Positions 2,767 to 57,500 of a DNA stretch of 64,000 nt are shown in pieces. The position numbers and the translations under genes are program-made. The stretch is taken from the NCBI GenBank assembly GCA_029776255.1, contig JAKOTN010000083.1, forward strand, positions 61,487 to 125,486, read 5' to 3'. A model generated the notes under the pieces. That model did not search any database. It was not told where the DNA came from and saw only the letters and a list, made by a program, of their open reading frames with translations. Positions within the stretch are counted from its first letter, which is position 1, and the number at the start of each line of letters is the position of its first letter. Source of the DNA: Pseudomonadota bacterium (GTDB taxonomy: Bacteria > Pseudomonadota > Gammaproteobacteria > Burkholderiales > Rhodocyclaceae).

Positions 2767-2770
2767 GAAC

Positions 2771-4063: not shown

Positions 4064-4170
4064 TAGGCGACTCCTTTCGCTGCACATGGTTGATGCGATG
4101 TGGCGACGGATACAGCACCGATGGTCGCCAGATACAATTCCGATTGTTTCATGAGGAAAACCCCTTCTTA

Positions 4171-8953: not shown

Positions 8954-8967
8954 CCTGGCGACTCCTG

Positions 8968-34993: not shown

Positions 34994-35923
34994 ATGAACT
35001 GCAGGAGAATACGTTTTGCCACGACCGTCCTAATCAGTGCTTTTGGTGGCCTTGCCGTCACGCCGCTACAGGCCGCTTCTATTCCATTTAACTGGGCACT
35101 CAATTATTCCTATAATCCCAACGCTGCAAACACCTTTGATACTGAGCAGACGTTGAACAGCGCACCAGCGACTCCGGCCACATCGACCTATTCGCAATCA
35201 GGTAGTTGGGGAAGCGTCAGTGGCTACGCGTCGGCCAATCTGGCGACCGGCGAATTGAAGTTGCGTAGCAGCGCAACGAACGGCGATGGCACCGCGGCCC
35301 CCTATATGCAAACAAATGCGATCTTCGGCGACAGTTTCACGACAACGGCGACCAGTGGATCGCCGTACACGTGGAACGGTTCCTCCGCGACTTTCAATTT
35401 GGCGTTGACCGGCACGCTTAACGGCGTGGACGCCTCATCGAACGCGGGCGCTTTTGTGATTCTGATGATCCTCAACAAAGGCACGCTTGACCCAGGCCAA
35501 CCACTGATCGGCAGCGTGAACACCAAGCAATATTTCCTTTGGAACCTTGGCAATCCAACCCTCCAGCTCTACTACACGAATCCACAGGGCCAATCCCAGG
35601 CATTAACGACCACCTACAGCTACACCAGCCTTCCACCAACGATCAGCGCGACCTTCGCGCCGGGGGGGGACTTCGACTGGGCACTACTGCTCGGTGCCTC
35701 GGGGCAGGAAATGAACCCTGGTGACTCCTTCGACGTTGATCTTTCGCACACGCTGACACTTAGTTATGTGGGACCAGAAGGTGGAATTACCGCATCCGAA
35801 TCCGGCCAATTTGGGAATATCACGTCACGCAATGGAACCGTGCCTGAACCTAGCGCACTCGCCTTGCTTGGATTGGGGCTTGCTGGACTTGCATATAAAA
35901 GACGAGGAAAAGGAAGCCAATAA
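34994..35923 (+). CDS. PEP-CTERM sorting domain protein
   Basis: A 309-aa exported protein. Signal peptide (about 1-27, TVLISAFGGLAVTPLQAA), a Ser/Thr/Gly-rich beta-type body, and a C-terminal PEP-CTERM signal: VPEPSALALLGLGLAG then KRR. Such proteins are processed by an exosortase at the membrane and associated with exopolysaccharide. GGGAGG lies 9 bases before the ATG. No exosortase or EPS genes are in the window. It stands alone with its own sigma-54-like promoter and a strong downstream hairpin. Function of the body is unknown. Confidence 0.92.
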   Translation: MNCRRIRFATTVLISAFGGLAVTPLQAASIPFNWALNYSYNPNAANTFDTEQTLNSAPATPATSTYSQSGSWGSVSGYASANLATGELKLRSSATNGDGTAAPYMQTNAIFGDSFTTTATSGSPYTWNGSSATFNLALTGTLNGVDASSNAGAFVILMILNKGTLDPGQPLIGSVNTKQYFLWNLGNPTLQLYYTNPQGQSQALTTTYSYTSLPPTISATFAPGGDFDWALLLGASGQEMNPGDSFDVDLSHTLTLSYVGPEGGITASESGQFGNITSRNGTVPEPSALALLGLGLAGLAYKRRGKGSQ

Positions 35924-37831: not shown

Positions 37832-39967
37832 TCAGAAACCGCTTTCCCGGACCAGAACCGCCAGCAGTGGCCGCAACCCGTGCTGCCACAGACTTTGCGG
37901 CGCGGCCTCGATGCGGCCGTGGCGAATCGCCTCGCGACCGCTTGCCGCCGAAGCCGAAGTCGCATCCAGAACGACGCCGATCCGGTACAACGCGTCGCTG
38001 GCCACGTCGCGGTCACGCTCTCGATGGGTGGGCACCGGACCGCCGCTCCGCGCGTCGAGCATGGCGTGCGGCAAGGTGGTCACGCGTGCCGGATCGATGG
38101 CCGCGACGCGTCCCGTCAGCGGCGCCGCCGCCTCCGCGGCATCGTAAAGCCGCACCGACTGCCCAAGGGCAATCCGCGCCAGATCCTGCTCGGCGACGAG
38201 CAATTCGGCGCGCCACACACTGGCGTCAACCACCCGCGCCAACAGCAAATGGCTATTGACCCAGGTGCCCGGTCGCAGACCATCGGCCAGATCGCGGACC
38301 GTACCGGCGAAGGGCGCGCTCAGCAGCAAGCGCTCGGCGGCTCGCGTCTGTGCCCGTGCCTGCTCCGACAACTCGCGCGCCTGTTGCATGGCCTTGGCCG
38401 CCTGTGCCTCGCCGCGCTGGTTGATCACCGGCAAACCGGATGCCTGTCTGGCATACGCCTGCGCCAGGATGGTGGTGCGTCGTGCTTCATCGTCGAGTTC
38501 GGGGGCCGCCAATTCGAACAGCGCCTGACCGGCGACCACGGTCTGTCCCTCGGACACGTGAACCGCCGTCAAACGCGCCGCCTGCGGACTGTAGAGCGCG
38601 CGCTGAGTGGCTGGAAAGATCCAGCCCGGGGCATGCACCGCCGTCGACCAGGGCCAGAACAACAAAATCGCGCCGCCAACCAGCAGCAACGGATAAGCCA
38701 GTTTTCGGCGTTTGGAGAGGTGCCGCCGCAAGGCCGGCCACTCGCGCAATTCGCGCCAGATCGGCAAGACGATGAACCAGGCCAGTTCGACCGCGAAGAG
38801 AAAAATACCCAGCGCCTTGAAAAAGAAATGGTAAACCGCCAAGGCGATGCCGAAGAAGACCCCCAGCCGATACAACCAGGTCACCGCGGAAAACAGCGCC
38901 AGCAAGCGCGCTTTCCACAACGGCAGGGGCTCGGCATCCGATGCGACGATCCCGAACAGCAGACGCCGCAAGCGCAAACGCGCCAGCGCCGCGCTGCGCT
39001 CGTGCAGATTGGGCATGTCGAGCGCATCGGCAAGAATGAAATATCCGTCGAAACGCATGAACGGACTGATGTTGACGAGGAAGGACAATACCCAACTGGT
39101 GGTGGCCAGGAAGAACACCGCGGCTCGCAACTGACCGTCCGGCAGCAGCGCCCAGGCCAGCGTCGCCCAGGCGGCGAGAATCAACTCGGCGACGATGCCG
39201 GCTGCGGCGATGCGCAGGCGGTCACGGTGTTCGATCACCTTCCAGCTCTCGCCGGTGTCCGTGTAGAGCATCGGCGCAAGCACCACCAGCGCGATCCCCA
39301 TGTGCGCCACCCGCACGCCGTGACGGGTCGCGGTTACCGCGTGCGCCAGCTCGTGCAGGGATTTGGCGATGGACAGCGCCAGCAGATAGCCGAGAAAACC
39401 GGGTGCGCTCAAGGAATCGTTGGCCCGCGCCAAGACGATGTCCCATTGCCGCATCGCCAGCAATCCACCGAGACCGCCCACCAAAACGGTAAGCAGCAGG
39501 AAAGACGGGCTGTACAACCAATGGGTCATCGCCGTCAGCCGCCGCAGGAGGCGTCCCGGCCGCAGCAAGGGTAGGCGAATGAACAGGTAATGATGGAGAA
39601 GGCGTCGCAGTGGAGCGCCGCGTCGGCTGACCGCGCGTTCGGCCAAGGCGGAAGCGGCCTGACCAGTCGGTGGCAGCACCAGCTCGTTTTGCCGCAGAAA
39701 GCGAATCAGGGCGTCGACATCCTCGACACTGGCCGCCAGCGTCGTTTCCGCGGCCACCGCGTCGGCAATCGCCGCCGCCGTCGCCAGCGGCCAGCGCAGC
39801 AAAAGCTCGAACTCCAGCCAGCCGATGCGGAAGAACCGGTTTCGCACCGGGTCCAGCACCTGCCAGCTTGGCGAACCGTCGGCCTGTGGCGTCGCCGGCA
39901 GCAGCCGCAATTCCTCCCGCAACGGCGGCACCGCCAGGGCGGGATTCGCCACGTTCAGCATCCGCAC
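37832..39967 (-). CDS. PqqD-like / M50-like membrane protein / HlyD fusion
   Basis: A 711-aa inner-membrane protein, last gene of the giant-adhesin locus. N-terminal part (about 35-105; DPVRNRFFRIGWLEFELLL ... LIRFLRQNELVL) resembles a PqqD-type peptide-binding domain. Then a multi-helix core (about 165-460) with the M50 zinc motif KSLHELAHAVTATRHG and FMRFDGYFILAD. Last a HlyD-type adaptor part (about 470-690; AARLTAVHVSEGQTVVAGQALFEL split here: AVHVSEGQTV, LLSAPFAGTVRDL). It may be a protein-processing or substrate-docking unit for export. Its ATG overlaps the upstream gene by 13 bases. Confidence 0.78.
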   Translation of the reverse strand: MRMLNVANPALAVPPLREELRLLPATPQADGSPSWQVLDPVRNRFFRIGWLEFELLLRWPLATAAAIADAVAAETTLAASVEDVDALIRFLRQNELVLPPTGQAASALAERAVSRRGAPLRRLLHHYLFIRLPLLRPGRLLRRLTAMTHWLYSPSFLLLTVLVGGLGGLLAMRQWDIVLARANDSLSAPGFLGYLLALSIAKSLHELAHAVTATRHGVRVAHMGIALVVLAPMLYTDTGESWKVIEHRDRLRIAAAGIVAELILAAWATLAWALLPDGQLRAAVFFLATTSWVLSFLVNISPFMRFDGYFILADALDMPNLHERSAALARLRLRRLLFGIVASDAEPLPLWKARLLALFSAVTWLYRLGVFFGIALAVYHFFFKALGIFLFAVELAWFIVLPIWRELREWPALRRHLSKRRKLAYPLLLVGGAILLFWPWSTAVHAPGWIFPATQRALYSPQAARLTAVHVSEGQTVVAGQALFELAAPELDDEARRTTILAQAYARQASGLPVINQRGEAQAAKAMQQARELSEQARAQTRAAERLLLSAPFAGTVRDLADGLRPGTWVNSHLLLARVVDASVWRAELLVAEQDLARIALGQSVRLYDAAEAAAPLTGRVAAIDPARVTTLPHAMLDARSGGPVPTHRERDRDVASDALYRIGVVLDATSASAASGREAIRHGRIEAAPQSLWQHGLRPLLAVLVRESGF

Positions 39968-41313
39968 CAGCCGCGCAGACTGGCCAGCGGCCGGCGCAGC
40001 AGCAGATAGATCAATGGTCGCCGCTCGCCGTGAATCTTGGCCGTTCCCTTCAAGCCGATTCGCGCGCCTTCCGTGGTTTCCAGTCTGGCCTTGATGCGAT
40101 AGCTGATCACGCCGTCCGGCCCGGCCTGCGCCGAGAAACTGGTCTCGGTCAGCGTCGCGGCCAGTGACTGCAACGGCGCGACATGCAGATAGACGCGCAC
40201 TTCGGCGTCGGTCTGCAAATTGATGGCGTCCGCCACCGGCACCCAGACGGTGACATTCATCTCTTCGGGGTTGGCCAGCAAACCGATGCGTTCGCCGGTT
40301 TGCAAAGGTTTGCCGGCCCAGTCGAGCTGATCGCCGTAAATGAAAACACCGTCGGCCGGCGCGCGGACCTGCAGCCGTTCGGCCTGTCGCGCCGTGCTGT
40401 CGAGTTCGGCTCGTTTTTCATTGACCTTGCCACGCAAAACGCTCAAGGCCATCCGGCTTTCGTGCGCTTCGTCGAATGCCTGTTGTTCGGCCTGCAACAG
40501 ATCGGCGCCGCTGGTACGCGCCGCCTCCTCGAGCACCTGCCGACGATTGACCAATAGCGTGTCGTCGAATTCGACCAGCACGTCGCCGGTTTTCACCGGC
40601 GCGCCCGGCGCCACCGGAATCCGCTTGACGACGCCGTCCATCGGCGCGGCGACCACCTGCGGTCGACTGGCGGTGATCTCGGCCGGCGCCAGTACCGACA
40701 GGCGCACCGGCATCAGGCATGACAGCAGGAAAATGCCGCCACCGAGCAACAGTTGGCGACGCGACGGACGCCAGTTCCGCCAGCGCCCTTGCGAACGCAG
40801 CCACGCCCACAACGCGTGTCCGTAGACCGTTTGCAATTCCGCCAGCCATGCCGCCGGATCGGACGGCGGCGGTGGCCAGGACCATGGATCGTCGCGTGCC
40901 AGCAACCACCAGGCGAGAACCTCGCCATCGGGGCCGGCCAACGGCAGGACCAGAACACCGGCCGGCAACCATTCCTGCCAGTCGGCCCGCAGTTCGGCCG
41001 GAACGTCGTCGACGTCGATGGCGCCGGCAGATCGCCCATCCTGCCAGGCGATCAGCGCTTCGAGCCACAACTGATAAGGGCTAGTCTCCTCGATCGCGCT
41101 CAGGCCGGAATGGCAGTGCAAGCGCCAGCGACCGCGCACGTCGCGTCGAAAAATCATCGCCTGCCGAAAAGGCAGCAGACCGCGACTGTCGTTGCAGATC
41201 AGGAATTGCAATTCGGAGAGGGTAGCGGCGGCGCGCGCTCCCGCCGCCAGTCCAAGATAGATCTGCAACGGCGTCGCCGGCGCGGCGGCGACGCCGGGCG
41301 CCGGCGAATTCAC
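39955..41313 (-). CDS. HlyD-type adaptor with N-terminal GAF-like domain
   Basis: A 452-aa protein. The first roughly 210 residues (ELQFLICNDSRGLLPFRQAMIF ... LVLPLAGPDGEVLAWWLLARD) look like a GAF-type cytoplasmic domain. One membrane helix follows (LLLGGGIFLLSCLMPV), then a HlyD adaptor (VVAAPMDGVVKRIPVAPGAPV, a helical hairpin, LQVRAPADGVFIYGD). I chose GTG at 41313, whose GTGA overlaps the previous stop; the track start at 41514 runs into the neighbour. The GAF part facing the cytoplasm may sense a ligand or bind the substrate before export. Confidence 0.78.
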   Translation of the reverse strand: MNSPAPGVAAAPATPLQIYLGLAAGARAAATLSELQFLICNDSRGLLPFRQAMIFRRDVRGRWRLHCHSGLSAIEETSPYQLWLEALIAWQDGRSAGAIDVDDVPAELRADWQEWLPAGVLVLPLAGPDGEVLAWWLLARDDPWSWPPPPSDPAAWLAELQTVYGHALWAWLRSQGRWRNWRPSRRQLLLGGGIFLLSCLMPVRLSVLAPAEITASRPQVVAAPMDGVVKRIPVAPGAPVKTGDVLVEFDDTLLVNRRQVLEEAARTSGADLLQAEQQAFDEAHESRMALSVLRGKVNEKRAELDSTARQAERLQVRAPADGVFIYGDQLDWAGKPLQTGERIGLLANPEEMNVTVWVPVADAINLQTDAEVRVYLHVAPLQSLAATLTETSFSAQAGPDGVISYRIKARLETTEGARIGLKGTAKIHGERRPLIYLLLRRPLASLRGWCGC

Positions 41314-42143
41314 TTCGGTTTGGGGAAAACCGCCGGTCCGCTCATCCCGGGCAGCAAGTCGGGATCCTTGCCGAGCAGTTGCGCTTCCACGACGACGGTC
41401 TGGCTGACCGGATCGACCCGACTGTTGATCTGCTTGACCTGCACGGCATAGCGCCGACCGGTTTCCTCGACATCGATGTCGAAACGGCCGCCCGCCTTCA
41501 GCCACGACAGCCACAGCGACGGGACATTGACGCGCACCCGCGGCGGGGTGTCGGAAACGATATCGAGCAGCGGCGCACCGGCGTTAACGCCCTGGAACGG
41601 CTTGGCATGCCATTTCGCCACCCATCCGGAAAAAGGCGCCACGACCCGGCATTGCGCCAACTGCGCATTGGCGACGCCGACTTGCGCCCGCGCCTTGGTC
41701 ACCGCCGCCGCCAGCTCGACCTCCAGTTCCGACACCGATTCCAGCCCTTGCAAACGGATTTTACCGTCGTGCGCCAGCCGGGCGCTTTCAAGCTCGGCGA
41801 CGGCCATCTCACGCCGCGCCTGGGCTTCGCCGCATTCGAAACGGGCGATCACCTGGCCTTTCCTGACTCGCTCGCCGGGACGGGGTTCCAAACCGGTCAA
41901 GCGCCCGGACATGCTGGCGGCGAGAGTGGTTTCACGATCCGGAATCAGCAAGGCACGGACAGGTGCGTCGGCGGACACCGGCGGCACGACAGCCGGTGCG
42001 GACGCGTTGGCAACCGGCGCCGGTGCCGCGGCCGCCGGCGCGCCGACGGCTGGAGGGGCGGTGAAATCGAGCGCCGCCCCCAGAAGAAGCGCCGGTACTG
42101 CCGCCAGCCGTGCGATCGCCATTCCCGATTTGCCGAAGCTCAT
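41310..42143 (-). CDS. HlyD/RND-type periplasmic adaptor
   Basis: A 277-aa adaptor with a signal-like N-terminus (MAIARLAAVPALLLGAAL), an Ala/Pro-rich linker, a lipoyl half-motif (MSGRLTGLEPRPGERVRKGQ), a short hairpin (about 120-165) and VVAPFSGWVAKWHAKPFQGV. Second adaptor of the locus, fully periplasmic by prediction. Start overlaps the TolC stop by 4 bases and the stop overlaps the next GTG, so it is translated in step with both. It probably joins the outer-membrane TolC protein to the inner-membrane partners. Confidence 0.85.
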   Translation of the reverse strand: MSFGKSGMAIARLAAVPALLLGAALDFTAPPAVGAPAAAAPAPVANASAPAVVPPVSADAPVRALLIPDRETTLAASMSGRLTGLEPRPGERVRKGQVIARFECGEAQARREMAVAELESARLAHDGKIRLQGLESVSELEVELAAAVTKARAQVGVANAQLAQCRVVAPFSGWVAKWHAKPFQGVNAGAPLLDIVSDTPPRVRVNVPSLWLSWLKAGGRFDIDVEETGRRYAVQVKQINSRVDPVSQTVVVEAQLLGKDPDLLPGMSGPAVFPKPK

Positions 42144-44026
42144 CGCGCAACCGCCGTCGTCTCGATTTTCGGGACGAGATGCTCACGCAGGAAACCCACT
42201 TGCGACAAGGCCGCGGCTTCGGCAAAGGCTTGCACCGACCGTTGTGGCAAGTCAGGCGTCAGCACCGTGCCGTACTTGCGGGTACCGCGCACCTTGCCGG
42301 TAGCGTCGATCAACGTCATCAGCCACTCGCACCGTTCGACACCATTGACCACCGGACCACGCTTGAGGGTCATGCGGAACGTGGCGTTTTTTCCCGCCTC
42401 GCCGACAACCGGCAACTGGTTGCGACGCAAGCGTTCGCTGACACCTTCAACCAGGGTCCGCTTCGAAAGATGCGCCGGCAACGCTTCGATCTCGAGATGA
42501 AATTGTTGTGGCGGCGCGACGACGCCGCGGTCTACCTGAAACACTTCCCGGTCGCCAGCGGCCAGGCTGGCCTGTAGTTGCTTGGCCACTTCGTCCAGAT
42601 CGACACTGGCCAGCTCGTCCGGCAACACGTTCTGGCCGACCGAGTTGAGGATGCGGCCGAGCGCGGTTTGCGCGTTGGCATACGCACCATAACGCTGGAA
42701 CTGGGTCACCAGCGCGCGTGCCTCGGTACGCACCGCCTCCAGTTCGCTTTCGACACGCGTGCTGGCCGCCGCCTGACTGATTTGCGCCAGACGCTGGTCG
42801 ACACGCGCGGATTCGTCGGTTTGCCGGTAGTCGAGCAACGCCAGCTTGTAACGTTCGATCGCCACACGAACTTGCGTGATCACCGCCATCGACAGCGCCA
42901 GACGACGCGCTTCGGCGGCTTGCTGGCGCGCCTCTTGCGTCTGCTTGACCGTCGGGTAACCGAGCAGTTTCATCACGTTCCACGAAAGGCGCACGCTGCC
43001 GTCGTACCAACTGTCGTTATAGAGATGCCGGTTGCTGTCACTCCGGTACCCGACCATGAAATCGATGCCTGGCAACAGCGAGATCAGTTGCCGCCTGGCC
43101 TCGTAACCGTCGATGCGCGCCTTGTAGTCTTCCTCGCGCAGTTCGGGACGATTCTCGAGGGCACGGATTTCGAGCTCATCGACCCGCTCGGGCACCGGCG
43201 GCAGCAAATCCTCCGGCGCGTCGGCCAGTTCGAACGGCGTCCCCGGCGGGATGTTCATCAGCGCCGCCAATTCGTGACGGGCGAATTCCAGTTCCTGCCG
43301 TTTGAGAGTAATCAGGGTCAGCGAATCGAGCAGAGCACGCTGGTAGGCCAGTGCCTGCGCGGGCGGCAGAACGCCGCTGGCCTCGGCCTGGCGAGATTGC
43401 TCGAGCGCCCGCTCTATCCGCCGGTTCAAGCGATCGAATTGCGTCAGCAAGCGCTGCGCGCCCAAGGCCCGCCAGTACGAATTGCGCATGTCCTGAACGA
43501 TGTTCTGCCGCACCTTGCGCCGTCGCTCCTCGGCGATGTTGTATTCGTCGCCGGCTTGTCTGGCGCGGTAGTAGCTCAATCCGAAGTCGAGAACGTTCCA
43601 GCTCAGCTCGGCACCGCGCAAATTGTGACGCCTTTCTTCCGAGGTCGACGGACTGAGCGTTTCCTGGCCGGTCAGGATACTGACGCTGGTGCCGCCGGAG
43701 TCGTTGTTCCGCCAGTTGTAACCGGCGGAGGCGGTCAGTCGCGGCAAGAGATCGAAGGCACTGCTATCGGACAAGCCGCGCGACAGGGCGCTTTCCATCA
43801 ATTTCAGGCGATAGTCGAGGTTGTACGTCAGCGCGCGGGCAACGGCGTCGTGAAAAGTGAACGGTTTGACGATCGGCGCCTGATCCTTGTACATCTCCTG
43901 CCGGTCCCGTGCCACGCGCTGGGCAATCTCGTCGCGGCTGAAAGGTTCCGGCGTGACGCTCGCACAAGCGGCCAGCAGAGAAAGGCTCAGCATGCTCAGT
44001 AAATGACGTTTCATTGGTATCTTCAT
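42140..44026 (-). CDS. TolC-family outer-membrane lipoprotein
   Basis: A 628-aa outer-membrane efflux protein. It has a lipobox (LSLLAACAS), two OEP repeats with long helices (about 60-250 and 280-460, e.g. ALTYNLDYRLKLMESALS), and an extra C-terminal domain (about 500-628) not found in plain TolC. It would form the exit duct for the giant protein encoded just 9 bases upstream. The start could be 44026 or the next Met at 44014. The extra domain is of unknown role. Confidence 0.88.
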   Translation of the reverse strand: MKIPMKRHLLSMLSLSLLAACASVTPEPFSRDEIAQRVARDRQEMYKDQAPIVKPFTFHDAVARALTYNLDYRLKLMESALSRGLSDSSAFDLLPRLTASAGYNWRNNDSGGTSVSILTGQETLSPSTSEERRHNLRGAELSWNVLDFGLSYYRARQAGDEYNIAEERRRKVRQNIVQDMRNSYWRALGAQRLLTQFDRLNRRIERALEQSRQAEASGVLPPAQALAYQRALLDSLTLITLKRQELEFARHELAALMNIPPGTPFELADAPEDLLPPVPERVDELEIRALENRPELREEDYKARIDGYEARRQLISLLPGIDFMVGYRSDSNRHLYNDSWYDGSVRLSWNVMKLLGYPTVKQTQEARQQAAEARRLALSMAVITQVRVAIERYKLALLDYRQTDESARVDQRLAQISQAAASTRVESELEAVRTEARALVTQFQRYGAYANAQTALGRILNSVGQNVLPDELASVDLDEVAKQLQASLAAGDREVFQVDRGVVAPPQQFHLEIEALPAHLSKRTLVEGVSERLRRNQLPVVGEAGKNATFRMTLKRGPVVNGVERCEWLMTLIDATGKVRGTRKYGTVLTPDLPQRSVQAFAEAAALSQVGFLREHLVPKIETTAVAR

Positions 44027-44035: not shown

Positions 44036-47000
44036 TCAAGTGTCAAGGGGCAAGGTCGACGCGATCCGCCGACGCTGGTGCTGAGTGTGTCGCAATTGTT
44101 CGCTGAAGGACGCGGCAACGGGGCGCGGCGTCTCATCGGGCAAAATGACGGGCGATACCGCATGTTCCAGCGACGGCAAGGCGTCATCGTTGACGAGCGC
44201 CTGCCCATCGACCGGCGGCGCTTGTGAATCGTCCGCCACCGTTTGACGACCCATGTGGTGTGGCGAGAACGGTGAAAAATCGTCGTTCAAGCTTTCAGCG
44301 TCGCTGGCCATCAAATCGTTGAGCGCCAACCCCTGCCGGTTGATTTCGGAAACCAACTCCCGAGAATAAGCCACGCCCTGGTCGAGAACGAATTGCGTTG
44401 GCGTCATCCGCTCGTAGCGCTGCAACAAGGAGGACTGCGTTTCTCCAAGATCGCCAACCGTCTGTAGATCCAGTATTTTGGCGACACCTTCCACCAGCGA
44501 ACTGGCCGAATGATCGACTTGACGCAGGACGAACTCCGCCGGTACGAACGGTTGCGCGATGGGGTCCGCGCGCGGCTCGATCGGCGCCGATGGGGCGCGG
44601 ATTGGCGTATTCGTCGCACTGTCCCAGGTGGGCGGCGGCGGCGAAATATCCGGCGGCAACACCTCAAGCGATAGCGTGCCGGTAGCGGTCAGACCGGTGC
44701 TGTCGCGCACCGTGTAGGTAATCGGTGGAACGCTGCCGTGCCAGTTGGCGGCTGGCAGGAAGGTGTAGCCGCCATCCGCCAGAACGGTCAGCGTGCCGAC
44801 ACCGGGGATCGTTGTGCTACCGCCCGCGGCGCCGGGAGACACCGGCACGACGACACCGTTGACCACGAACTGGCTGACCGTCAGGCTGTCGCCGGCATCC
44901 GGATCGCTGTCGTTATCCAGGACGTTGCCGGTTTGGTGCGTGCCCGGCGAGGCGCTGTTGTGGTCGGGCTTGGCGATCGGCGAATCGTCGGCACCGATCA
45001 CCGTGACGAAAATTCTCGCCGAAACAGTGGCGCCATCGGCATCGACCAGCGTGTAAACATAGCTGGTCTGCCGTGTCTGGCCGGCGACGAGATCGTCGAA
45101 ATCGCCGTGCGGATCGAAGCTGACCTGGCCATCGGCGGCAATGCTGAACAAGCCGCCGTGACTGCCGGGAACCACCGTGGCGACGAACGCATGTAGCGCG
45201 TCGCCATCGGGGTCGCTATCGGCGACGGCATCGGTCAAGGCATTGCCGACGACGCGCGGTCCGCCGACACTGCCAGTCACATAGGCATTGTCGGTTGCCG
45301 ACGGCGGCGGATTGCTCGCTGTCCAGGTGAAATTCAGGCTGATTTGCTGGCCGTGACCGTCGGTCGCCGTGATGACGACGCTGTACACACCGTTGTGCCC
45401 GGGGCCGCCGGTGCTCGCCGAACTGTCGAGAGTGCCGCGGATCACGCCGTTGCCGTCGATATGCAAGCCCGGCGGCAGACCGCTGGCGGTGTATGTCAGC
45501 GTGTCGCCGAGATCGGCATCGGCGAAGTGTCCGCTGACGTCGAGCGGCGCGACCGTCGAACCGTCGTTGTTGTGCCGAGCGGGCAGCGCGCCGACCGTTG
45601 TCGGCGCGTCATTCGTTCCGTCGATGGTAATGGTCAGCGTGCTGCTGGCAAATCCGCCGTGACCGTCGCTGATGGTGTAAGTGAAAGATTCTTTGATCGA
45701 TTGGCCGGCCGCCAGTGCCTGCACGACCGGATTGTCGTTGTCTGGCGTGTAAACCAGGCGACCGTCCTCGGCAACGCGCAGTTGACCGTACAGGCCGGCA
45801 AGCGGTGCGCCCGGTGTCGAGCCGCCGCCAACACCGCCGGCAAGGCCATTGGCATTGCTGAAGGCGATGACGGTCAGCGAATCGCCATCGACGTCGCTGT
45901 CCTGTCCGGTGACCGCGGGAGTGAGATCGCCATTCACTGCGGGTCCGTCTTCCCGCGCGCTCAGATTGTCGGCCACGGCGGTCGGCCAGTCGTTCTGGCC
46001 GTTGATGACGATCGTCAGCGTCGTCGTGGCGCTGCCGCCCTGCCCGTCGGAAACCGTGTACTGGAACACTTCACTCAGCGTCTGTCCGGGCTTCAGCGCC
46101 TGTACCGCCGGATTGGCGTTGTCGAGCACATAACTGTAAGTGCCGTCCGCATTCAACGTCAGGCGACCGTAACCGCCGGCGGTCGCGCCGCCAACCGTTC
46201 CACTGCCGCCGTTGATCGCCGATACCCGCAGGGTGCTGCCGGCGTCAGGGTCGGCGTCGTTTATCAGGACGTTGCCTGTCGCCGGCACGGCGGAGTCCTC
46301 GCTGATCGCGTCGCTATCGGCGCGTGCTTGCGGCTGATCGTTGACCCCGGAAATAACAATGGTAATCGTCGCATCGACGAAGCTGCCGCGACCGTCGGAG
46401 GTGGTGTAAACAAAGCTGTCGGTCACCGTTTCACCGGCTTTCAGCTTTTGGACCGCGGCGCTTGCGTTGTCGAGCGCGTAACTGTAGCTGCCGTCGGCGT
46501 TCAGAGTCAGACGCCCGTAGAGACCGTCAAACGGATGTCCGACGCTACCGCCACTGCCGTCGGGCCGCATGATATCGGTGATCGTCAGCGCGTCGCCGTT
46601 CGGATCGCTGTCCTGTGCCGCCGTATCGGTGCCGCTGCCGCCGCCGCCGTTGGTCCATTGACCGCTCAGGACATTGCCGGTGGCGGTACCCTGCTCCTCG
46701 GCGATGGTATTGACGTCGTTCCCGGCGTAGGGCTGATCGTTGGTGCCGTGAATGGTGAAAGTGATCGTCGCGGTGCTCGTGCCGCCATGCCCGTCGCTGA
46801 TGGTGTACGTGTAGGTTTCGGTCAACGTTTGACCGCGCTGGAGGGTCAGGACGCTGGCCTTGCCCTGGTCGACGGCATACGAGAAGGTGCCATCGGCGTT
46901 CAGCGTCAAACTGCCGTAATTACCGGCGGTGCTGCCGCCGACCGTGCCGCTGCCGCCATTGATCGCCGACACGACCAGGGGGGTGCCGCTATCGGGATCG

Positions 47001-47179
47001 CTGTCGTTGCCGAGGACGTTGCCCTTGATCGGTGTGCCGCCGGGCGGTCCGGCGGTATCGACGGTGTCGTAGGCATCGTCGTTCGCCGTTGGCGGATCGT
47101 TGAGGCCGTTGATGGTAATCGCCAGAGTGCTGCTCGCCTTGCCGCCGTGGCCGTCGTCGATGGTCCAGCGTGTAAACAT
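44036..47179 (-). CDS. Giant repeat adhesin, 3' part after the frame break
   Basis: This 1047-aa ORF is the C-terminal continuation of 46989-60101 in another frame; it has no start of its own that makes sense. From the first residues (RWTIDDGHGGKASSTLA) it continues the VCBS repeat interrupted upstream, then four more VCBS-like repeats, an Ig-like domain (GLPPGLHIDGNGVIRGTLD), two more repeats and a C-terminal region (about 870-1047) with two similar bits, AEFVLRQVD and TQFVLDQGV. No RTX nonapeptides are seen. The C-terminus could hold the export signal. If the frame break is an assembly error, this is the end of one protein of about 5,350 residues. Confidence 0.8.
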   Translation of the reverse strand: MFTRWTIDDGHGGKASSTLAITINGLNDPPTANDDAYDTVDTAGPPGGTPIKGNVLGNDSDPDSGTPLVVSAINGGSGTVGGSTAGNYGSLTLNADGTFSYAVDQGKASVLTLQRGQTLTETYTYTISDGHGGTSTATITFTIHGTNDQPYAGNDVNTIAEEQGTATGNVLSGQWTNGGGGSGTDTAAQDSDPNGDALTITDIMRPDGSGGSVGHPFDGLYGRLTLNADGSYSYALDNASAAVQKLKAGETVTDSFVYTTSDGRGSFVDATITIVISGVNDQPQARADSDAISEDSAVPATGNVLINDADPDAGSTLRVSAINGGSGTVGGATAGGYGRLTLNADGTYSYVLDNANPAVQALKPGQTLSEVFQYTVSDGQGGSATTTLTIVINGQNDWPTAVADNLSAREDGPAVNGDLTPAVTGQDSDVDGDSLTVIAFSNANGLAGGVGGGSTPGAPLAGLYGQLRVAEDGRLVYTPDNDNPVVQALAAGQSIKESFTYTISDGHGGFASSTLTITIDGTNDAPTTVGALPARHNNDGSTVAPLDVSGHFADADLGDTLTYTASGLPPGLHIDGNGVIRGTLDSSASTGGPGHNGVYSVVITATDGHGQQISLNFTWTASNPPPSATDNAYVTGSVGGPRVVGNALTDAVADSDPDGDALHAFVATVVPGSHGGLFSIAADGQVSFDPHGDFDDLVAGQTRQTSYVYTLVDADGATVSARIFVTVIGADDSPIAKPDHNSASPGTHQTGNVLDNDSDPDAGDSLTVSQFVVNGVVVPVSPGAAGGSTTIPGVGTLTVLADGGYTFLPAANWHGSVPPITYTVRDSTGLTATGTLSLEVLPPDISPPPPTWDSATNTPIRAPSAPIEPRADPIAQPFVPAEFVLRQVDHSASSLVEGVAKILDLQTVGDLGETQSSLLQRYERMTPTQFVLDQGVAYSRELVSEINRQGLALNDLMASDAESLNDDFSPFSPHHMGRQTVADDSQAPPVDGQALVNDDALPSLEHAVSPVILPDETPRPVAASFSEQLRHTQHQRRRIASTLPLDT

Positions 47180-48510
47180 AGGAACCGTCGGCGGCGACGG
47201 TCACGTGACCGTAGCGGCCGGCAAGGGGGCTGCCGACGGCACCGGCGGTGCCGTCGGTATTGGTGATCGCGCTGACGACCAGGGTGTCGCCGTTATCGGG
47301 ATCGCTGTCGACGCTGACCGGCGACAGGCTGGAGACACCGCCGCCGTTTACGCGCGAACCGCTGATCAGGTTGCCCGACGAAACGGTTTGATCCTCGGTC
47401 ATGCTGTTATCGTCTGCTTGCGCCAGCGGTGAATCGTTCTCGCCGCTCAAGGTGACTGTCAGTGTTGCCGTGGCGGTGCCGCCGTGGCCATCGCTGATGG
47501 TGTAGGTGAAAGTATCGGTCGCCTTCTCGCCGACGGCCAACGCTTTGGCGCTGGTGGTATTCGGAAGATAACTGTAAGTCCCATCGGCGTTCAACGTCAG
47601 GCTGCCATGGGTCCCCACGACGGGTTGGCCGACATGAGCGGCCTGACCGTTGACCTTGCTGACGGTCAGCGTGTCGTTGGTATCGGGATCGCTGTCGTTG
47701 GACAACACTTGACCGGCAACAGCCGGTCCGTTGGCCGGCACGCTGACGGCGTCGTCGACAGCGACCGGGGTATCGTTGACGCCGTCGATGGCGATCACCA
47801 GATTGGTGCTTGCCGTTCCGCCCTTGCCGTCGGCAATGACGTAGGTGAAGCTGTCGCTGAGTTGCTGTCCGACGGACAAGGCGTTGACCGCCGGGTCGGC
47901 GTTGTTCAGGGTGTAAACGTAACTGCCGTCGGCCGCCAGATCGAGACGACCGTAAAGGCCGTCGATCGTCGTCGCGCTGCCACCGCTGACCGGCGTGGCG
48001 GTGGCCGGCGGACGATCGGCACCGGCGGCGACTCCGATGACGGCCAGCGAATCGCCGTTCAAATCGCTGTCGTTGGTCAACACGCCAGGGGCGCCGACAC
48101 CGATGCTGGCAGTGCCTTCGCTGATGGTATTGTGGTCGGCCGTGGCACGTGGGGCGTCGTTGGCGCCGTGAATAACGATGGTCAGTGTCGCCGTCGAGAA
48201 ACCGCCCTGCCCGTCGCTGATCGTGTAATTGAAGGTTTCACTGACGGTGGCGCCGGCGCCGAGCGCCGCAACCGTGGCGTTATCGGTATAAACCCGGAAA
48301 CTGTAGCTCCCGTCGGCAGCGAGCAGCAATTCGCCAAAACCGTTGCCGCCGACCAGCGGGCTGCCCAACACACCGGACACGGCGCCGTTGTTCACGCCGC
48401 TCACCACCAGCGTGCCGCCGTCGACGTCACTGTCGTTGAGCAGGACGTCGCCGGTCGCCGGCAGCGCACTCGCCTTGGCAATGCTGTTGGTGTCGGCACG
48501 CGCGACCGGG
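45600..48510 (-). repeat. VCBS-like tandem repeats, eight units
   Basis: Eight repeats of about 115 residues begin near 48510, 48150, 47780, 47430, 47090, 46740, 46340 and 45990. Each has ADxNxIxED...GNVLxNDSDPD, a YGxLTLNADGSYxYxLDN strand, and FTYTISDGHGG. The fourth unit is the one that is broken. Confidence 0.75.
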
Positions 48511-51500
48511 GTGTCGTTGACCGCGATCACATTGACGGTCGTGGTGACGCTCAAGGCGTTCTGCCGGCCGTTGGCGGCGGCGTCGGAATTGACGTCGCGA
48601 ACGGTCCAACTGATCGTGCGCGAGGCGTCGCCCGGGCTGTCCGACGTGGAATCGAAGCGGATCGAACGCAGCGCCGCCTGGTAAGCCGCCGCCGACGCGA
48701 CACCGCTCAGTTTCAACACGCCAGTGTTGCCATCGTACGTGCCGCTGATGCCGTTTTGATCGACGAACAACAGGTGATCGCCGGCGACGAAACCGGCGCC
48801 GATGCGAATCACCGCCTGATCGAATTGGGTGTCGTCCGCATCGCTGAGCAGCAACGCCGGCTCGAGCAGCAACGGTGCGACGTTTTCGGTATAGCTGTGC
48901 GTACTGCCGGCGCCGGCGATCAGCGGCGCGTCGTTGACCGGTGTCAGATTGACCGTGCGCGTGCTGTTCGTGGTGCGCGCACCGCTGCCATCGGCGTTGG
49001 CGTCGGTGACCGACACGGTCAGCGTGCGGCTGGGTCGCGTGGTGTCCGCCGTCGGGTCGTCGCTGCCGCTGCTGAAAACCAGCGAGCGCAGCACTTCCTG
49101 GTAATGCGCGACGGTATCGATGCCGGTCAGGGTCAGCACGCCGCCAACGTAACTGGCGGAGATGTTCGTGCCGGTCGTGATCACCGCCAGGGTATCGCCG
49201 GCCACCGGGCTGCCGATACTCACCGTTGCCGAAGCCAGGTAGCCGTCATCGGCGTCGCTCAAGGTCAGGTTGGCGTCGACCAACACCGGTGTTCCTTGCT
49301 CGGTGTAGCCAACCGCCGGCGGCGCGGTCGAAATGACCGGCGCGTCGTTGCCGCGGCTGATGTTGATCGTGGCGCTCATGGTCGCCGTCAACGGACTGAC
49401 CGTGCTGTCGCCGGCGCTGAGCTGCCCTTGCGGGATGGTCCCGGCCAGGCCGGTGTTCTGGTCGCTGACGGTGTAGTCCAGCGTGACGGTCGCCGGTGGG
49501 GCGTCGCTGGTGTTGCGATAGGTCAGGCCCTGGATCACCGCGTCGACGCGGCTGGCCGTCGCCGCGGCATTGAACGTGATCGTCAAGGTGCCGGCGGACT
49601 GGGTGTAGGTCCCGACAACGACACCGCCAACAACGACGTTGCCAGCGGTTGAACCGGTGAACCCGAGCGCCGCGGTGGCGCCGAAAACATCGTCGGCGCT
49701 GGCGCCGCCCTGGCGGGCGACGGTCAACGTCGCACCGGTCCATTGACCGCCGCCATCCAATTCGGCGTCAGCCAGCGTGACATTGCCGTCGATCTGTATC
49801 GCGGCGCCGTTTTCGGTATACGTCGGAGTGGCATCGAGGCCGGCGATGGTCGGCGCGTCGTTGATCTGAACAATGTTCACCGTTACCGACGATTGTGCCG
49901 TCAAGACGCCACCGCTGCCTTGCGCGCCGCCGGTGTTCTGGTCGCTGAGCACGACGTTGATCTGCGCAAAGGCGGGCGGAACGTCGGAGGTGTTGCGATA
50001 AGACAAGGCGCCAACGACGCGCCCGACCGACGCGGCGTCGGCACTGGCGTTGAACGTTATCGTCAGTTTGCCGCCCACCTGCGTGAAACCGCCGACCGCG
50101 ACGCCATCCACGACGATGGCGCTGCCGCTGGTCTGCACGCCGAGTGCCGGGTTACCCGGGCTGTCGTCGACAAAACCGAAGATATCGGCCGAATTGGCCG
50201 TACCGCTGCGCTGCACGGTCAGCGTGGCGCCGTTCCAGTTGCCGCCAAGTTCGACATCGGCGACGACGACGTTGCCGTCCAGATCGAGCCGCACCGGGGT
50301 CGCGGCATTTTCGACGAACACCGGCGTCCCGGCAAAGCCGGCGATGGTCGGCGCATCGTTGACCGCCGCGACCACCGCCGTCAGCGTCGTCGCCGTGCTG
50401 TAACGGCTGCCGCCGCCGACCGTGCCGAGATCCTGGCCGCTTTGCGCGGCGGCGACGCTGCCAGCCGACGCGTCGATGGCATGCACGGCCAACACCGGTG
50501 GCGTGCCGTTGTAGTCGGCGACCGGCGCGAAGCGCAGGCTGGCGGAAGTTGGGAGAATCAGAGCGTTGCCAGTGCTCAGGTTAGTGGGCACATCGACCCA
50601 GCCGGCGCCGGTGTTGTACTGCCAGCGGCCCTGCGTCGCCGGATCGGCGCTATTGCCGCTGACCGCCAAACCGGCGAAGGCTTGCGCCGACGAACCGCCA
50701 CTGACGTTATCGGTGCCATCGCCGTAAAGCGACCCGAACAGCGCACTGACGGTCGAGCCGGTATTGGCGGCGCTGCCAATGTCCTCATCGAGGTTGATGC
50801 TGGCCGCGCTCAGCGTTGGCGCATCGTTGACCGCGCCGACGCTGGTCGACAAGGTCACGGCGTTGGCGCTGTTGCTGTAGCGCGTGGTCCCGCCGGACAG
50901 CGTGGTGTCGTTCGATACGTCGACACTGGCGCCGGCGGCCGGCAGGCTGCCGGTCGAGTCATCGACCAGGCGAGCGGTCAGGTTGCCGGGTGTGCCGTTC
51001 CAATTGGCGTTCGGCACGAAGCGCAGTGTGTAACCCGCTGGCAAGAACAGGCCGCTCGCGGACGTGAGACCGGTACCGATGGTCGTCCAGCCGGTACTGC
51101 CATCGGCCGAATACTGCCAGACCCCTTGCCCGGCGGTCGCCGCGTTGGCCGTGACGACGATACCGGCGAGATTGTTCGCCGCCGTACCGCCGAAACCGCT
51201 TTGTTCATCGCGCGCGTCGGAAAAAGCGGCGCCGAACAGGCTGGCGACTGTCGCCTGATTCGGACTGGCGGCGTCTTCCAGGGAGGCGCCGAGAACAACG
51301 CCGGCGAGCAGTCGGGTTGGCGCATCGTTGGCCGGGTTGACGGTCAGCGTCACCGTGTCGGTGGCGGTCGAGAAGGCGGTGGTTCCGCCGTTGGCACGCG
51401 TATCGACCTTGTTGCCGGCGCTGCCGCTGGTCTGATCCCAGGCACGCAGGGTAAGGCCGGCGGCGAAGCTGCCATTGACGTCGTTGGCCGGTTGGAAATA

Positions 51501-54500
51501 AAGGCGATCGCCAGCGCGCAGCAGCAGGGCGCTGTCGTCGGCCACGGCCCCGACCGCTGTCCAGTGCACGCCATTGTCGGTGCTGTAATACCAGGTTCCG
51601 TGCGAGCCGTCGGCGCCGGTGATCGCCACCCCTTGCAGACTGCCGCTGTCGGGATCGCTGATACCGCCACTCAACGCCGAAATCAGCGTGCCGACGGCGC
51701 CGCTCGGCGCGACCGCGTCTTCGTTGGCACTCAACGTCAGCGCGGTATCGCCAAGCTGCGGCGCGTCATTGACCCCGTTGACGGTGACTGTTTGGTCGAA
51801 GGAAACCTGTTTGGCGCCGCCAGCGCCTTGTGCCAAGACGTTACCGTCATCGATGGTCCAGCGTAGCGGCACGGAATCCTGCTGCCCGGCGCCAAGGCTT
51901 TGAACCGTATTGCCATAGGTGATCGCGCTCGCCACCTGCTCGACATCGGCGGTGCTCGTTCCAGAGGCGAAGGTAATGTGCAAGGTGCCGCCGCCATTGG
52001 TAAACGTGCCGACGACGGTGGTACCGATGCGAATGGTGCCGCCGCTGAAGTTGACGCCGGTATCGCCACTGCCGGTGACGCCGAAAACGTCATTGACGTT
52101 GGCACCACCAACACGGGTCAGCGACAGTACCGCCCCACCCCAATCGCCGCTCCCGCCACCGAAAAACGACAGTTCGGGATCGCTCAAGGCGGCGGCGGGC
52201 GCCAGGACGCTTGGAGACCCATCTTCGGTGTAGGCGGCGGTGGCCGGCACGCCGGACAGGACTGGCGCGTCGTTGTTGGCGTCGATACCAACGATGACCG
52301 AACCGCTGCCGATCAGCGCCAGCGTCGGATTGGCGGCGCCCTGTGCCGTTGGACCGGTGTTGGTGTTGCCGTCGTCGATCGTGTAGCCAATGGTGACTTG
52401 CGACGGCGGGTTATCGTTGCCGTTGCGATAAGTGATCGCGCGCAGAACCTGTGTCGCCTGAGCACTGGTGGTGGCGTCGGCGAAGGTGATGGTCAGAATT
52501 CCGCCCGTGTTGGTGAAAGTACCGACCACGGTGGTGCCGATACGGATATTGGCGCCATTGAAATTGACGCCACTGGCACCGCTACCGGTGACACCGAAGA
52601 TATCGTCTACCGCCGCCGTACCGGCATTCCCAATAGCCGCGCTGCGCTGCAGGGTCAGCACGGCGCCGCCCCAGTTGTCGAAAGCGTCGAGTTCGGGATC
52701 GTTCAGGATCGCGTTGGCATCGAGCACCACGGCGGCGCCGTCTTCGGTGAAAGTGACGTCCGGCAAGCCGCCGCCGAGTCCCGTGAAGCCGGGCGCGTCG
52801 TTCAGACCGGCGACAGTGACGGCGAGCGAACCGCTGGCGGTTTTGTCTCCGCCGCTGCCACTGTTGCCCTGATCGTGGAAAACGAAACTCAGCGTGTCGG
52901 CGCCGCTGAAATGGGTATCCGGCAGATACGTCAGCTTGTTGGCGGCGATCGCCGCGTTGATGTCGGTGATCGTGCCGCTGAGAGTGATCGAACGGCCGGC
53001 CACGATAACGGTGACGCCACTCGCCGGATCGAGCGACAGCGTGCCGTGCACGGCACTGACCACCAATTGCACGCTACCGTAACCGCTATCGAGAATGTCC
53101 CGGTTGTCGGACAGGGTAATCCCGGTGACGACCGTTGTCGTCGCGCCATCGCGCGACTCGGCGGCGAACAAGGCGCCGCTTACTTGAACGCCGGGCGCCG
53201 CATCGACATCGAGCGTGGGCGTATCGTTGACCGCGGCGATGTCGATGACGATGTCGCGCGTCGCCGCCGACAAGGGCGTGCCCGGCGCGCCATCCTCCCC
53301 ATAACCCTGGTCATTGACGTCGAAGTGAAGCGTGCGCGCACTGGCGGAAACGTTCAAGGCATTGGCGTCGGCGACCGGCGTGTAACTCAGGCTGGCCAGC
53401 GCCGCGTTCAGTTCGGCCAGCGTGCCGACGATTTCCATGCTGCCGCTGCCGTTGGCGCCCGCGGAAAAGGTAATGCCAGTGGTGGTACCCAGGAGCAAGG
53501 TGCCCTGCCCGATCGATAACGTGACTTTCAGTGGGCCGTTACGGGCGTCGGCATCGGCAATGCTCAGCGTGTTGGCGCCGGTGAAATGGAAAACCGTGTC
53601 CTCGGTTGCCGCAACGCTTGCCGGCCCGGAGGAGGTCGGCGCGTCGTTGACCGGCACGATGCCGTTCAGGGCGATGGTGTCGTTCGCCGTCAGCGCGCCG
53701 CCAGAGCCGACGTTGCCTCGGTCACTGACCGCGATGTGCAGGGTATCCGACGTGGTCGGATCGTCGCCGCTGTCATAACTCAGCGTCGCCAGGGCGGCAT
53801 TGATCTGGGCGAGAGTCCCCTGGAGGGTCAGGTCGTTGCTGTTCAACGCGCCCGCGCTGACCGTGCAGCCATTGAGCGTCAGGTTCAATTTTCCGCTCGT
53901 GCCCACGTTCAGGCGCACCTGCATCGGCGGGGTGCTGGTCGGTGTTTCGCCGCGCGCCAGATCGGGGTCGTCGATTGAGATGCCAGTGATCGCCACGGTG
54001 TTGTTTTCCGTGCCGTAGGTGAAGACATGTGTGGTTACGCTGAGGGTCGGAGCGTCGTTTACGGCATTGACGGTTAACGACACCGAATCGGTGGCGGCGG
54101 AAAAGGCCGTGGTGCCGCCATTGTTCGTCGTGTCGGCAAGACTGCCGTTGGCCGCCAGATCGCTGCGGTCCCACGCCCGCAGGGTCAGGGGCGCGCTTTG
54201 AGTGCCGTTGTAATTGGCAGTGGTCGGTTCGAAATAAATGCGGGTATTGGCGTCGGCGGCCAACAGGCGGGCGGCATCGGCGCTAGGCGTGCCCAAGGCC
54301 AGCCAGGTCGCGCCATTATCGATGCTGTACCACCACACGCCATTGCTGGCATTCACGTTGGTAATCGCCACGCCCTGCACGGAACCGGTGTCGACATCGC
54401 TCACGCCGCCGACCAGGCTGGAAATCAGCGTGCCAACCGCGCCGACCGGAGGGCCGGCGTCTTCGTTCTGCGTAACGTTGAGCACCGTCACCGGGTCGAG

Positions 54501-57500
54501 AACCGGTGCGTCGTTGACCGAACTCACCGACAACGAGACCACGTTGCTCTCGGTCGAAAAAGCGGTGGTACCGCCCTGCGGGCTGCTGTTGGCACGCCCA
54601 CCGGCGCTACCGCTGGTCTGATCCCAGGCGCGATACGTGAAATTGGCTTCCGTGCCATTCTTGCCGTCGGGAATGAAACGGACATAGGCGGTCGACGACA
54701 ACAACAAGGCATTGGTCGCCGAAACGCTGCCGATAGTGCTCCACGTGCCGTCACTGCCGTTGGTCGAGTCGAGCGAGTACTGCCACGTGCCATTGCCGGC
54801 GGTCAACCCGGTGATGGCAATGCCTTGTAGCGCGCCGTTGTCGACGTCGGAAACGTTGGCGCCGAGCAAGGTCGAGACCAGCAGGCTGCGCCCATCGGCG
54901 GTGTCGTCCTCGGTGATCGACACCAGCGTGGTGTCGCCGTCGGCCAGTAGGGGCGCATCGTTGCGCTGCTTGACGACGATCGTGTTTGTGGCCGTGACGG
55001 TGTCGACGCCGTTGATCGCCGTTCCCTCGTCATCGGTGTAGCTCGCGGTGCCGCCGCCATCGACGAAGGTGTAGCTGAGCGTGCGCGTGGCTTGCGCGGT
55101 CGCCTGCGAGGCGTTGGCGGTGTCGGTGTTCTGAAAAGTAAGGTTTTCCAGCACGGCTTTGACCGCGGCGACGTCGGCGTTGCCGTTGAACGTGATCTTC
55201 AAATCGCTGCCATTAACGCCATTTTTGCTGGCGTCGATGGTGCCGATCGACACGCCGTTGTAACGCACGTCGCTACCAACGACGCTGATCGCTCCGAGCC
55301 CGCTCAGCGCCAACTGGTCGCCGGCCGCGAACCCCGAGGTGTAGGCAATGGTCAGCGTGCTGCCGCTGTTGTAATGTCCGTTGACATCGTTCGCCAGATC
55401 GGCGTCGCTGAACAACACCGACGCGTCGATGATCGTCTGGCCGTCATCCTCGAAATAGGTTAGCGGATTGAGCCCGGATAATTTCGGTGCGTCGTTCACC
55501 GGCAGAATCGTGATGTCGAAACGACCGGGCGGCTCGCTGGAGCCGCTTCCGTCCGAAATCACGAAATCGAAGAAATCGGTGGACGGCGTCTCGGAGCCGT
55601 TGTGACGATATTTGAGATAGCCATCCTGGACGTCGGCAAGCGTAAACGCCGAACCGCTGCCGAGCACGGTAATCACACCGCCTTTGTCGAGATACAGCGT
55701 TCCGTATTGAACGGCGGAGGTGATCCGGAACTGTGTCTGACGGCTCGAATTGTCGATATCGGTGTCGCCCGTTTGCTCGGACCCGAGCATGGTCGGGCCA
55801 ATATGGCGCACGCCGCCCTCCGGAACGCTGGCACCGGTGTTGTTGAACACCAGCGGCGGGTCGTTGTGCGGGATGATATCGATGGTGACCGTCGCCTCGT
55901 TGCTGTCCTGGTTGACCGGCGCGTCGGTGGCTTTGTCGTTGACACGCCATTTGAAGCTGTCAGCGGTCGATTCGCTGCCGTCCTGGACGTAACGCAGCTT
56001 GCCGCCAACGAGCATGTCGTAGGTGAATTGCGCGGACGCGGTGCCAAGATCGCCCGGCAACAGGGCAACGAAACCGCTGCCACGGTCGATTTCGATCCTC
56101 CCGTGCGCCGGCAAGGCCGTGATGGTGTAAACAAAACCGGACAAGGCGTTGTCGCTATCGGTAGACGACAGGATCGTCGCGTTCAAAACCTTGATCCGCC
56201 CGGCGTTGTCGTCGGCGTGGCCCGACCCCTGCGAGCTGTATCCTTCCTCGACGGAGAACGCGCTGTCGACCGCCGCCGGCGGATCGTTGACGTTGGCGAT
56301 CACGAAATTCACCGTGCGGCTCGGACTGCGACCAATGTTGCCCTTGGCGATCGACAATTGGGAATCGCCATCGTCGACGGTGACCGTCCCCTTCTCGCTG
56401 ATCGACGGCGGGCTGATCAGCAAGTCGCCAACCTGGACGACGCTGCCGTCGACCAGATAGACGCTGATCGAATCGTTGCGCAATTCGGACGCGGGATCGT
56501 GAAAATAAGCGATCTTGCCGTCGGCGACATCCTGCGCGGCGAAACGCTCGCCAGCCGCCAACGCCACCCACGCCGACCCGCTGGCATCCCAGCGACGGAG
56601 CTGACCTCCGCTTGGCGCGCTTTCAAGAACGTAGGCCAAGGCCCCGATCGCGCTGTCCGGGTCGTGATATTGCAGATTGGCCAAAGTCAGCTTGACCGCG
56701 TTGCCGACGCCCGCGAGCGTGAAGCTGTTGCTTCCGTCGACCAGGCTTTGCTCAAGCAGCGTCGTGCCGTCCTGATTGGTGCCGACCGTTCCCTGCGTCT
56801 GGGTAATCGTTGGCGCGTCGTCAACCGGCGTGACGGTCAGATCGACGGTCGAACTGCCTGATACGCTGCCACCACTGCGACTGACAGTGAAAAAGTCGTG
56901 ATACGGCGAGGCGAAAGCATCGGGTTCGCTACCGTCGCTGACATAGACCACTTGCCCGGCGTCGATCTGCGCCTGAGTGAAACTACCGCCCATGGCAAGA
57001 ACGATGCCATTGACATAAATCGAGCCATGCGCGGGCGCGCTGGACAGGGTGTAGATGCTCGAATCGGTCAGCGCTCCCGTCAGCGAACGGAAGGAACCTT
57101 CGGCGACGATGGCGCCCAGCGTTCCTCCCGGTTCCGGCGGCACAGGAACATCGGGGACGATATTGATCGGCAACGTGCCGCTGGCGATGCCGCCATCCTT
57201 GTCATTGACCGAGAAGGTGAAACTGTCGTCGGCGGTCAGCGGATTGCCGTCGGTCGCCGAGCCGTCGTGAGTGTAAGTCAGACGGCCCGCCGCGAGATCC
57301 GCCTGGGTGAAGGTCGCCCCGGCGCCAACGATGACACCGTTCAGCCGCAAGGTGCCATGGGCGGGAACGGTGCTGATGGTGTACAAGCGATCGGAGGCCG
57401 GGCTATCGACATCGCTGGCGCTGAGAAAACTTTCGCTTATCGTCACCGCGGCACCGCCTTGTTGCGCCGACAACAAGTGCGTCACCGGAACCGGTGCATC

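Follow-up and report, generated by a model that had tools for sequence, protein, structure and literature searches.

The protein encoded at 37832..39967 on the minus strand of the window (the whole stretch of 64,000 nucleotides that was analysed) is a fusion of 711 residues, here called M50H, in which a PqqD-like RRE domain, an M50 site-2 protease core and a HlyD-type adaptor follow one another in a single chain. Its domain architecture, its invariant catalytic residues, the operon that it closes and the co-occurrence of the protease with a short N-terminal tag on giant adhesins are supported by computation, that is, by sequence, predicted fold and genome counts. From these observations we hypothesize that M50H serves in the inner membrane as receptor, protease and adaptor at once and exports LEPR-tagged giant adhesins under the guidance of their leader, a reading to which we assign a probability of about 0.6.

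The gene ends with the stop codon at 37832 and begins with GTG at 39967 or ATG at 39961, overlapping the stop codon of the gene upstream, MFP2. A first-pass annotation had given these coordinates correctly, without stating the strand, and had read the product as a PqqD-like domain joined to an M50-like core with metal ligands and to a HlyD adaptor. Pfam matches, AF2 models, Foldseek searches and residue invariance bear this reading out, and the two features on which it had been made to hang, a PqqD fold and the metal ligands, are both present. The AF2 model of the whole protein, built with 64 relatives, has a mean pLDDT of 91.8. Its C-terminal third, the periplasmic HlyD/MFP part with biotinyl-lipoyl domain and hairpin (residues 444-686; 37910..38638, minus strand), matches PF13437 (3.8e-12) and PF16576 (3.2e-11) in Pfam and has the barrel-sandwich and hairpin of an adaptor, with Foldseek matches to ZneB (E 1e-13), MexA, AcrA and EmrA. 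Since Foldseek with the whole model retrieved adaptors exclusively, the N-terminal domain was modelled separately.

Modelled alone (pLDDT 91.4), this domain (about residues 14-100; 39668..39928, minus strand) has the beta-beta-beta-alpha-alpha-alpha order of PqqD/RRE domains. Its best six Foldseek matches in the PDB are all leader-binding RREs of RiPP systems, TbiB1 and CteB, with probabilities of 0.89-1.00 and E-values of 0.02-0.15, which are modest, as expected for a domain of roughly 100 residues; the next match is unrelated (probability 0.63). The profile search by which the first-pass annotation had proposed to check the domain gave a divided answer: M50H itself has no PqqD match in Pfam at E ≤ 1 and none in NCBIfam, whereas PF05402 (PqqD) matches nine of 26 aligned relatives, the best at 2.3e-4. 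A profile made from the domain's sequence found chance matches alone among PDB chains. With detection by sequence and profile having failed, it is the fold and the relatives that carry the case for an RRE, and on the strength of the predicted structure the PqqD/RRE fold of the domain is confirmed, a new assignment for M50-HlyD proteins.

The membrane core (residues 154-437; 38657..39508, minus strand) is made up of long predicted helices and matches PF02163 (M50) at residues 195-276 with 5.5e-7, above the gathering cut-off. It contains the zinc-binding motif HELAH (residues 205-209; 39341..39355, minus strand) and, in the sequence FDGYF, D307 (39047..39049, minus strand), which, if the NxxPxxxxDG motif of site-2 proteases is taken as a guide, is probably the third metal ligand. 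Every one of 26 distant and 64 close relatives keeps H205, E206 and H209 (HELAHA) as well as D307 (FDGYF); in the set of 26, K202, N299, P302 and E261 are invariant or nearly so, as is the G/Y context around D307. An HExxH motif and a third aspartate in a DG motif, both within membrane helices, are the marks of an M50 site-2 protease, and M50H, as read from its alignment, carries the full putative ligand set. The same residues weigh on a reading in which the membrane core would be mainly a translocation pore or docking platform and proteolysis would be secondary. SecA/HlyD loci lack a pore, and Kamneva et al. (2015; PMC4452313) proposed that the M50 protein takes its place; both the many predicted membrane helices and the lack of an ABC pore protein in the locus agree with this. 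However, all the catalytic ligands are conserved without exception in the two clades of M50H described below, and a pore would have no use for them. To our knowledge no M50 protein acts as a protein channel, and we regard a core that is mainly a pore as unlikely.

The nearest described relative of M50H is MpaP of the daptides, described as an RRE-dependent intramembrane leader peptidase, in which an RRE is fused to a site-2 protease (PMC10036551). Like it, M50H has an RRE-like N-terminal domain ahead of an M50 core, and it matches the daptide protease model NF041824 at 7e-44 over residues 70-401 (in a relative, residues 20-401); at 150.5 bits against a curated cut-off of 300, it is a homologue and not a member of that family. 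The model, of 379 positions, has no HlyD part, and its substrates are small RiPP precursors, as opposed to the giant proteins that M50H would handle. The epipeptide metalloprotease YydH/LiaK (NF058609) is also an M50-type RiPP protease; it matches M50H weakly (4e-5) and far below the cut-off, and its model of 246 positions likewise has no HlyD part.

The operon lies on one strand in the order giant adhesin, TolC, MFP1, MFP2, M50H. The TolC-family outer membrane protein (42140..44026, minus strand; PF02321, 6.7e-31) is followed by the first adaptor, MFP1, an RND-type MFP (41310..42143, minus strand; TIGR01730, 2.8e-29, above the cut-off), and by the second, MFP2 (39955..41313, minus strand), whose 452 residues, counted from GTG at 41313, form a soluble N-terminal domain, one transmembrane segment and a HlyD part. 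The start of MFP2 overlaps the stop codon of MFP1, and orthologues of MFP2 occur in L032, L035 and L036. Many of 80 named genomes keep the order giant-TolC-MFP-MFP-M50H, among them genomes of Pseudomonas, Variovorax, Magnetospirillum and Desulfopila, and it is identical on the E. coli plasmid pABWA45_1; of 5426 complete E. coli genomes, 24 have the five-gene operon with high identity. On IS-flanked plasmids of E. coli and Citrobacter (L257, NZ_CP022155.1 116406-145220) the operon is complete and annotated merely as efflux adaptors, and because the full five-gene set is present on such E. coli plasmids, our hypothesis is directly testable. At L031 (IMGVR_UViG_3300022658_000180) the end of the operon, MFP2 and M50H, adjoins phage-like genes, probably of a prophage inserted beside it, and at L034 (G194:C98) an M50H of the window's clade is solitary, with no adaptors, TolC or giant nearby.

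The N-terminal part of MFP2 corresponds in position to the GAF domain of the partner adaptor reported by Kamneva et al. (PMC4452313), and no GAF domain was detected in the MFP2 of the window. A GAF-HlyD partner in those sister loci, together with the frequent use of site-2 proteases in regulated intramembrane proteolysis, would fit a sensor protease that, with a GAF-like partner adaptor, controls expression of the adhesin and does not handle the adhesin itself. The operon has no conserved anti-sigma factor or membrane regulator, however, and both the fused HlyD domain and the correlation of protease and substrate tag point to export; we consider a regulatory role highly unlikely.

The gene for the giant adhesin is split between two reading frames. 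Its 5' part (46989..60101, minus strand) probably starts with ATG at 60101, and its 3' part, in the other frame (44036..47179, minus strand), encodes cadherin/VCBS repeats and a conserved C-terminal tail, with no RTX. The open frames run from 60260 to 46989 and from 47200 to 44036, and the break at about 46989-47200 is either a slip of sequencing or assembly in the repeats or real; an intact relative on the E. coli plasmid pABWA45_1 has 4457 residues and the N-terminus MTTIKNRRLRPRAHRFALESRQLFDGAAL. The adhesin of the window begins with MSKKRSSFQWSPRRFTMALEPRHLFDGAAPAALAAAAQAAEK, followed by a DUF4347 domain and then by cadherin/VCBS repeats. No Sec signal peptide is evident at this N-terminus. 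Within its putative leader, MSKKRSSFQWSPRRFTMALEPRHLFDGAAPAAL, residues 19-28 of the adhesin form the tag LEPRHLFDGA (60018..60047, minus strand), recognised by pattern and by eye.

The tag, ALEPRHLFDGA, is related to the NCBIfam "LEPR-XLL" and is one of two flavours, (A)LEPR[IFM][LM]FD[GA]AA and ExLEPR[IL]L[LY]S[AG][DE], of which the second is LEPR-XLL itself. Proteins of that family (NF012209, LEPR-8K) have the same N-terminal E-P-R-x-hydrophobic tag on giant proteins, but NF012209 models the LLSAD flavour and leaves the LEPRHLFDGA flavour of the window unmatched: it has no match at its cut-off in the window's genome (G000), where the tag is visible by eye and pattern, and close variants of the tag in orthologues, such as those of G162 and G116, score around the cut-off. 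The core letters of the tag are fixed by the search pattern, and it is at the free flanking positions that conservation can be read, with A at -1 (26 of 37), E at -2 (42 of 44) and A or D/E at the tenth position. The LEPR-tagged open frames of 19427 (G368:C115), 14112 (G240:C84) and 15434 residues (G327:C1) are among the largest bacterial proteins.

The DUF4347 domain (59463..59939, minus strand; PF14252, 1e-43) has a conserved His (SHG) and Cys (YGC), the former nearly invariant and the latter invariant in the DUF4347 alignment, a pair that recalls the dyad of His and Cys in caspase-like proteases (clan CD). Situated directly after the leader, DUF4347 may be a domain that processes itself. 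The solved DUF4347 chain 9qpe_G is a weak match.

No ABC ATPase is encoded in the operon of the window, and among the flanks of 80 loci (1.49 Mb) we observed 11 matches to ABC genes, none of them at a conserved place and none in the operon. RTX nonapeptides are likewise absent from the last 230 residues of 27 giants. The operon thus has neither the ABC transporter encoded with an MFP nor the C-terminal RTX repeats by which type I secretion is recognised. With LapA/LapBCE-type systems it has in common a giant repeat adhesin, a TolC-family channel and HlyD adaptors; it differs from them in the missing ABC transporter and in a giant with no RTX C-terminus and with another N-terminus. M50H thus belongs with the RRE-fused site-2 proteases and is part of a putative export operon that does not answer to the definition of type I secretion. 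The D-type giants share an RTX-free C-terminal tail (P..FV.P.V ... A..F..QL..AA), which may act as a plug for retention or as a second signal for export; this conserved tail could be the real export signal instead of the leader.

M50H might also mature or release the giant and not export it, in which case an ABC-driven type I system encoded elsewhere would carry the adhesin, the leader would anchor it and M50H would cut the leader to set the adhesin free or to sort it, in a LapG-like or sortase-like role. The window's genome does encode an LssB-type ABC component of type I secretion (G000:C134:4504-6591; 983 bits, over the cut-off), the operon has no ATPase of its own, and the invariance of the protease site would suit a releasing enzyme as well. 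Yet that type I system adjoins an adhesin of its own with a LapA-type N-terminus, and RTX repeats are missing from the last 230 residues of the operon's giant; a mere releasing protease would have no need of the three adaptors and the TolC channel that the operon supplies, and the sister clade is accompanied by an accessory SecA. On balance we find release by M50H after type I export unlikely. In the region of that ABC gene (L226, G000:C134:1-16000), the neighbouring protein has the LapA-like N-terminus MADKTPVARVSAIQGKAFVKAADG....

That the tag and the protease belong together is indicated by their distribution over genomes. In a sample of 399 Pseudomonadota genomes, where a tag genome is one with a strong LEPR-XLL match, M50H is encoded by 40 of the 41 LEPR-tag genomes, compared with 91 of all 399 (Fisher 2e-28). 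As the sampled genomes are not fully independent by descent, we also counted by genus: M50H occurs in all 23 tag genera against 47 of 213 (4e-18). The class sample gave 16 of 18 tag genomes with M50H (3e-13). A match to A1 at E ≤ 1e-10 had been tried as the marker of protease genomes and was dropped, because ordinary HlyD adaptors match the C-terminal half of A1, and M50H was accordingly counted solely where the match covers the M50 part. The DUF4347 proteins provide a natural experiment. The tag is carried by 18 of 20 readable ones in genomes with M50H (19 counting LEPRILLAAD) against one of seven in genomes without it (p=6e-4); of the other six, four start with a sequence resembling a signal peptide and two lack any N-terminal extension. 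In named genomes carrying M50H the tag is readable in 28 of 30 DUF4347 loci, and the tag pattern occurs in five of 715 complete open reading frames of the loci, every one a giant beside M50H. As exceptions, G245 and G515 are tagged with no protease detected, and the DUF4347 protein of G077 is untagged; G515, the sole exception in the phylum sample, is 86% complete, and another member of its genus has M50H. The LEPR-tagged N-terminus of the operon's giant adhesin is therefore a statistically strong candidate, at the level of sequence, for the substrate terminus that M50H would catch.

These counts also weigh against a leader peptidase and efflux adaptor that matures and exports a RiPP or other small, unnoticed peptide, with the giant as a passenger gene. 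RRE-M50 proteins are indeed known from daptide and epipeptide clusters, but the Pfam and NCBIfam matches in the operon include no RiPP-modifying gene, and the neighbour that recurs beside the machinery is the tagged giant, its tag accompanied by M50H in nearly every genome. We hold such a peptide system to be most improbable. In our judgement, neither a RiPP cluster nor a regulatory protease nor ordinary type I secretion explains the findings as well as leader-guided export does.

A tree of 52 M50H proteins falls into two clades (support 100/100). Among the scored members, the switch between the tag flavours FD[GA]A and LLS[AG]D occurs exactly once on this tree, between the clades, and thus records a single evolutionary event and is no proof of repeated co-evolution. 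The sister clade has LLSAD tags and an accessory SecA-like ATPase in 12 of 15 members, directly beside M50H except in G081, where it lies on another contig. G177, basal in the SecA clade and unscored for flavour, carries an ILLDA tag and lacks an accessory SecA. The window's clade has FDGA-type tags, with an accessory SecA in none of its scored members. The single SecA of the window's genome lies far from the operon, which is thus not a SecA/M50/HlyD locus of the kind described by Kamneva et al. With neither an accessory SecA nor an ABC ATPase in the operon of the window's clade, the energy would have to come from a gene elsewhere, possibly the housekeeping SecA.

Kamneva et al. (2015; PMC4452313) described secondary SecA_DEAD/M50/GAF-HlyD/HlyD loci and proposed for them a role like that of type I secretion, with the substrate unnamed; they mention neither the N-terminal domain of M50H, nor LEPR, nor DUF4347. 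Their loci and ours share an M50-HlyD protein, HlyD partners, sometimes an OEP and the absence of an ABC transporter, and the sister clade also shares the SecA-like neighbour, whereas the window's clade lacks the accessory SecA, and its tags are of the FD[GA]A flavour. In open-licence texts, that paper alone was directly relevant to LEPR-XLL, DUF4347 or M50 with HlyD, TolC or SecA, and we found none that links SecA/M50/HlyD loci to LEPR tags, DUF4347 giants or RRE domains. The RRE assignment, the link between tag and protease and the SecA-free branch are new.

By the precedent of MpaP and the match to NF041824, we infer that the RRE binds the leader, that the M50 core trims it and that the HlyD domains with TolC form the conduit; the cleavage site, the order of events and the source of energy are proposed in the same spirit. 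In the cytosol, the RRE domain would bind the unfolded adhesin by its short, basic leader, which ends in (A)LEPRxxFDGA. This leader would then be brought to the intramembrane zinc site and be removed or trimmed around the FDGA/Ala-rich stretch, and the C-terminal HlyD barrel, the two partner adaptors and the TolC-family channel would pass the adhesin on to the cell surface. In the sister clade, the same protein would work with the accessory SecA-like ATPase. The suggestion of the first-pass annotation that the protein cuts the terminus it has caught and hands it on fits, by analogy, the invariance of the catalytic residues, the kinship with the daptide peptidase and the HlyD and TolC neighbours.

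We would lay even odds on a further step, namely that these operons form a distinct secretion system in which an N-terminal LEPR leader is read by an RRE and the RRE-M50-HlyD protein takes the place of the ABC transporter, clipping the leader as the adhesin leaves by way of adaptors and TolC, with one clade being SecA-driven and the window's clade SecA-free; the leader logic of RiPPs would then serve proteins of 2,000 to 19,000 residues. Leader-guided export by M50H would give a function to the widespread and unexplained LEPR tag and would be an export route with no ATP-driven pump of the usual kind. Two orphans, the LEPR-XLL tag, which some of the largest bacterial proteins carry, and the M50-HlyD/SecA loci, without a function since 2015, would at the same time gain a substrate and a testable role, and our reading suggests that leader recognition by RREs reaches beyond RiPPs to the export of giant adhesins.

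Elsewhere in the window, two similar tandem sets of small Ras/MglA-like GTPase and roadblock-like genes lie at 2221-9453 on the minus strand, the GTPases at 2221-2766 and 5572-6132 and the roadblock-like genes at 4171-4677 and 8968-9453. On the plus strand, 34994-35923 encodes an exported protein of PEP-CTERM type (VPEPSALALLGLGLAGLAYKRRGKG), which implies an exosortase in the window's genome.
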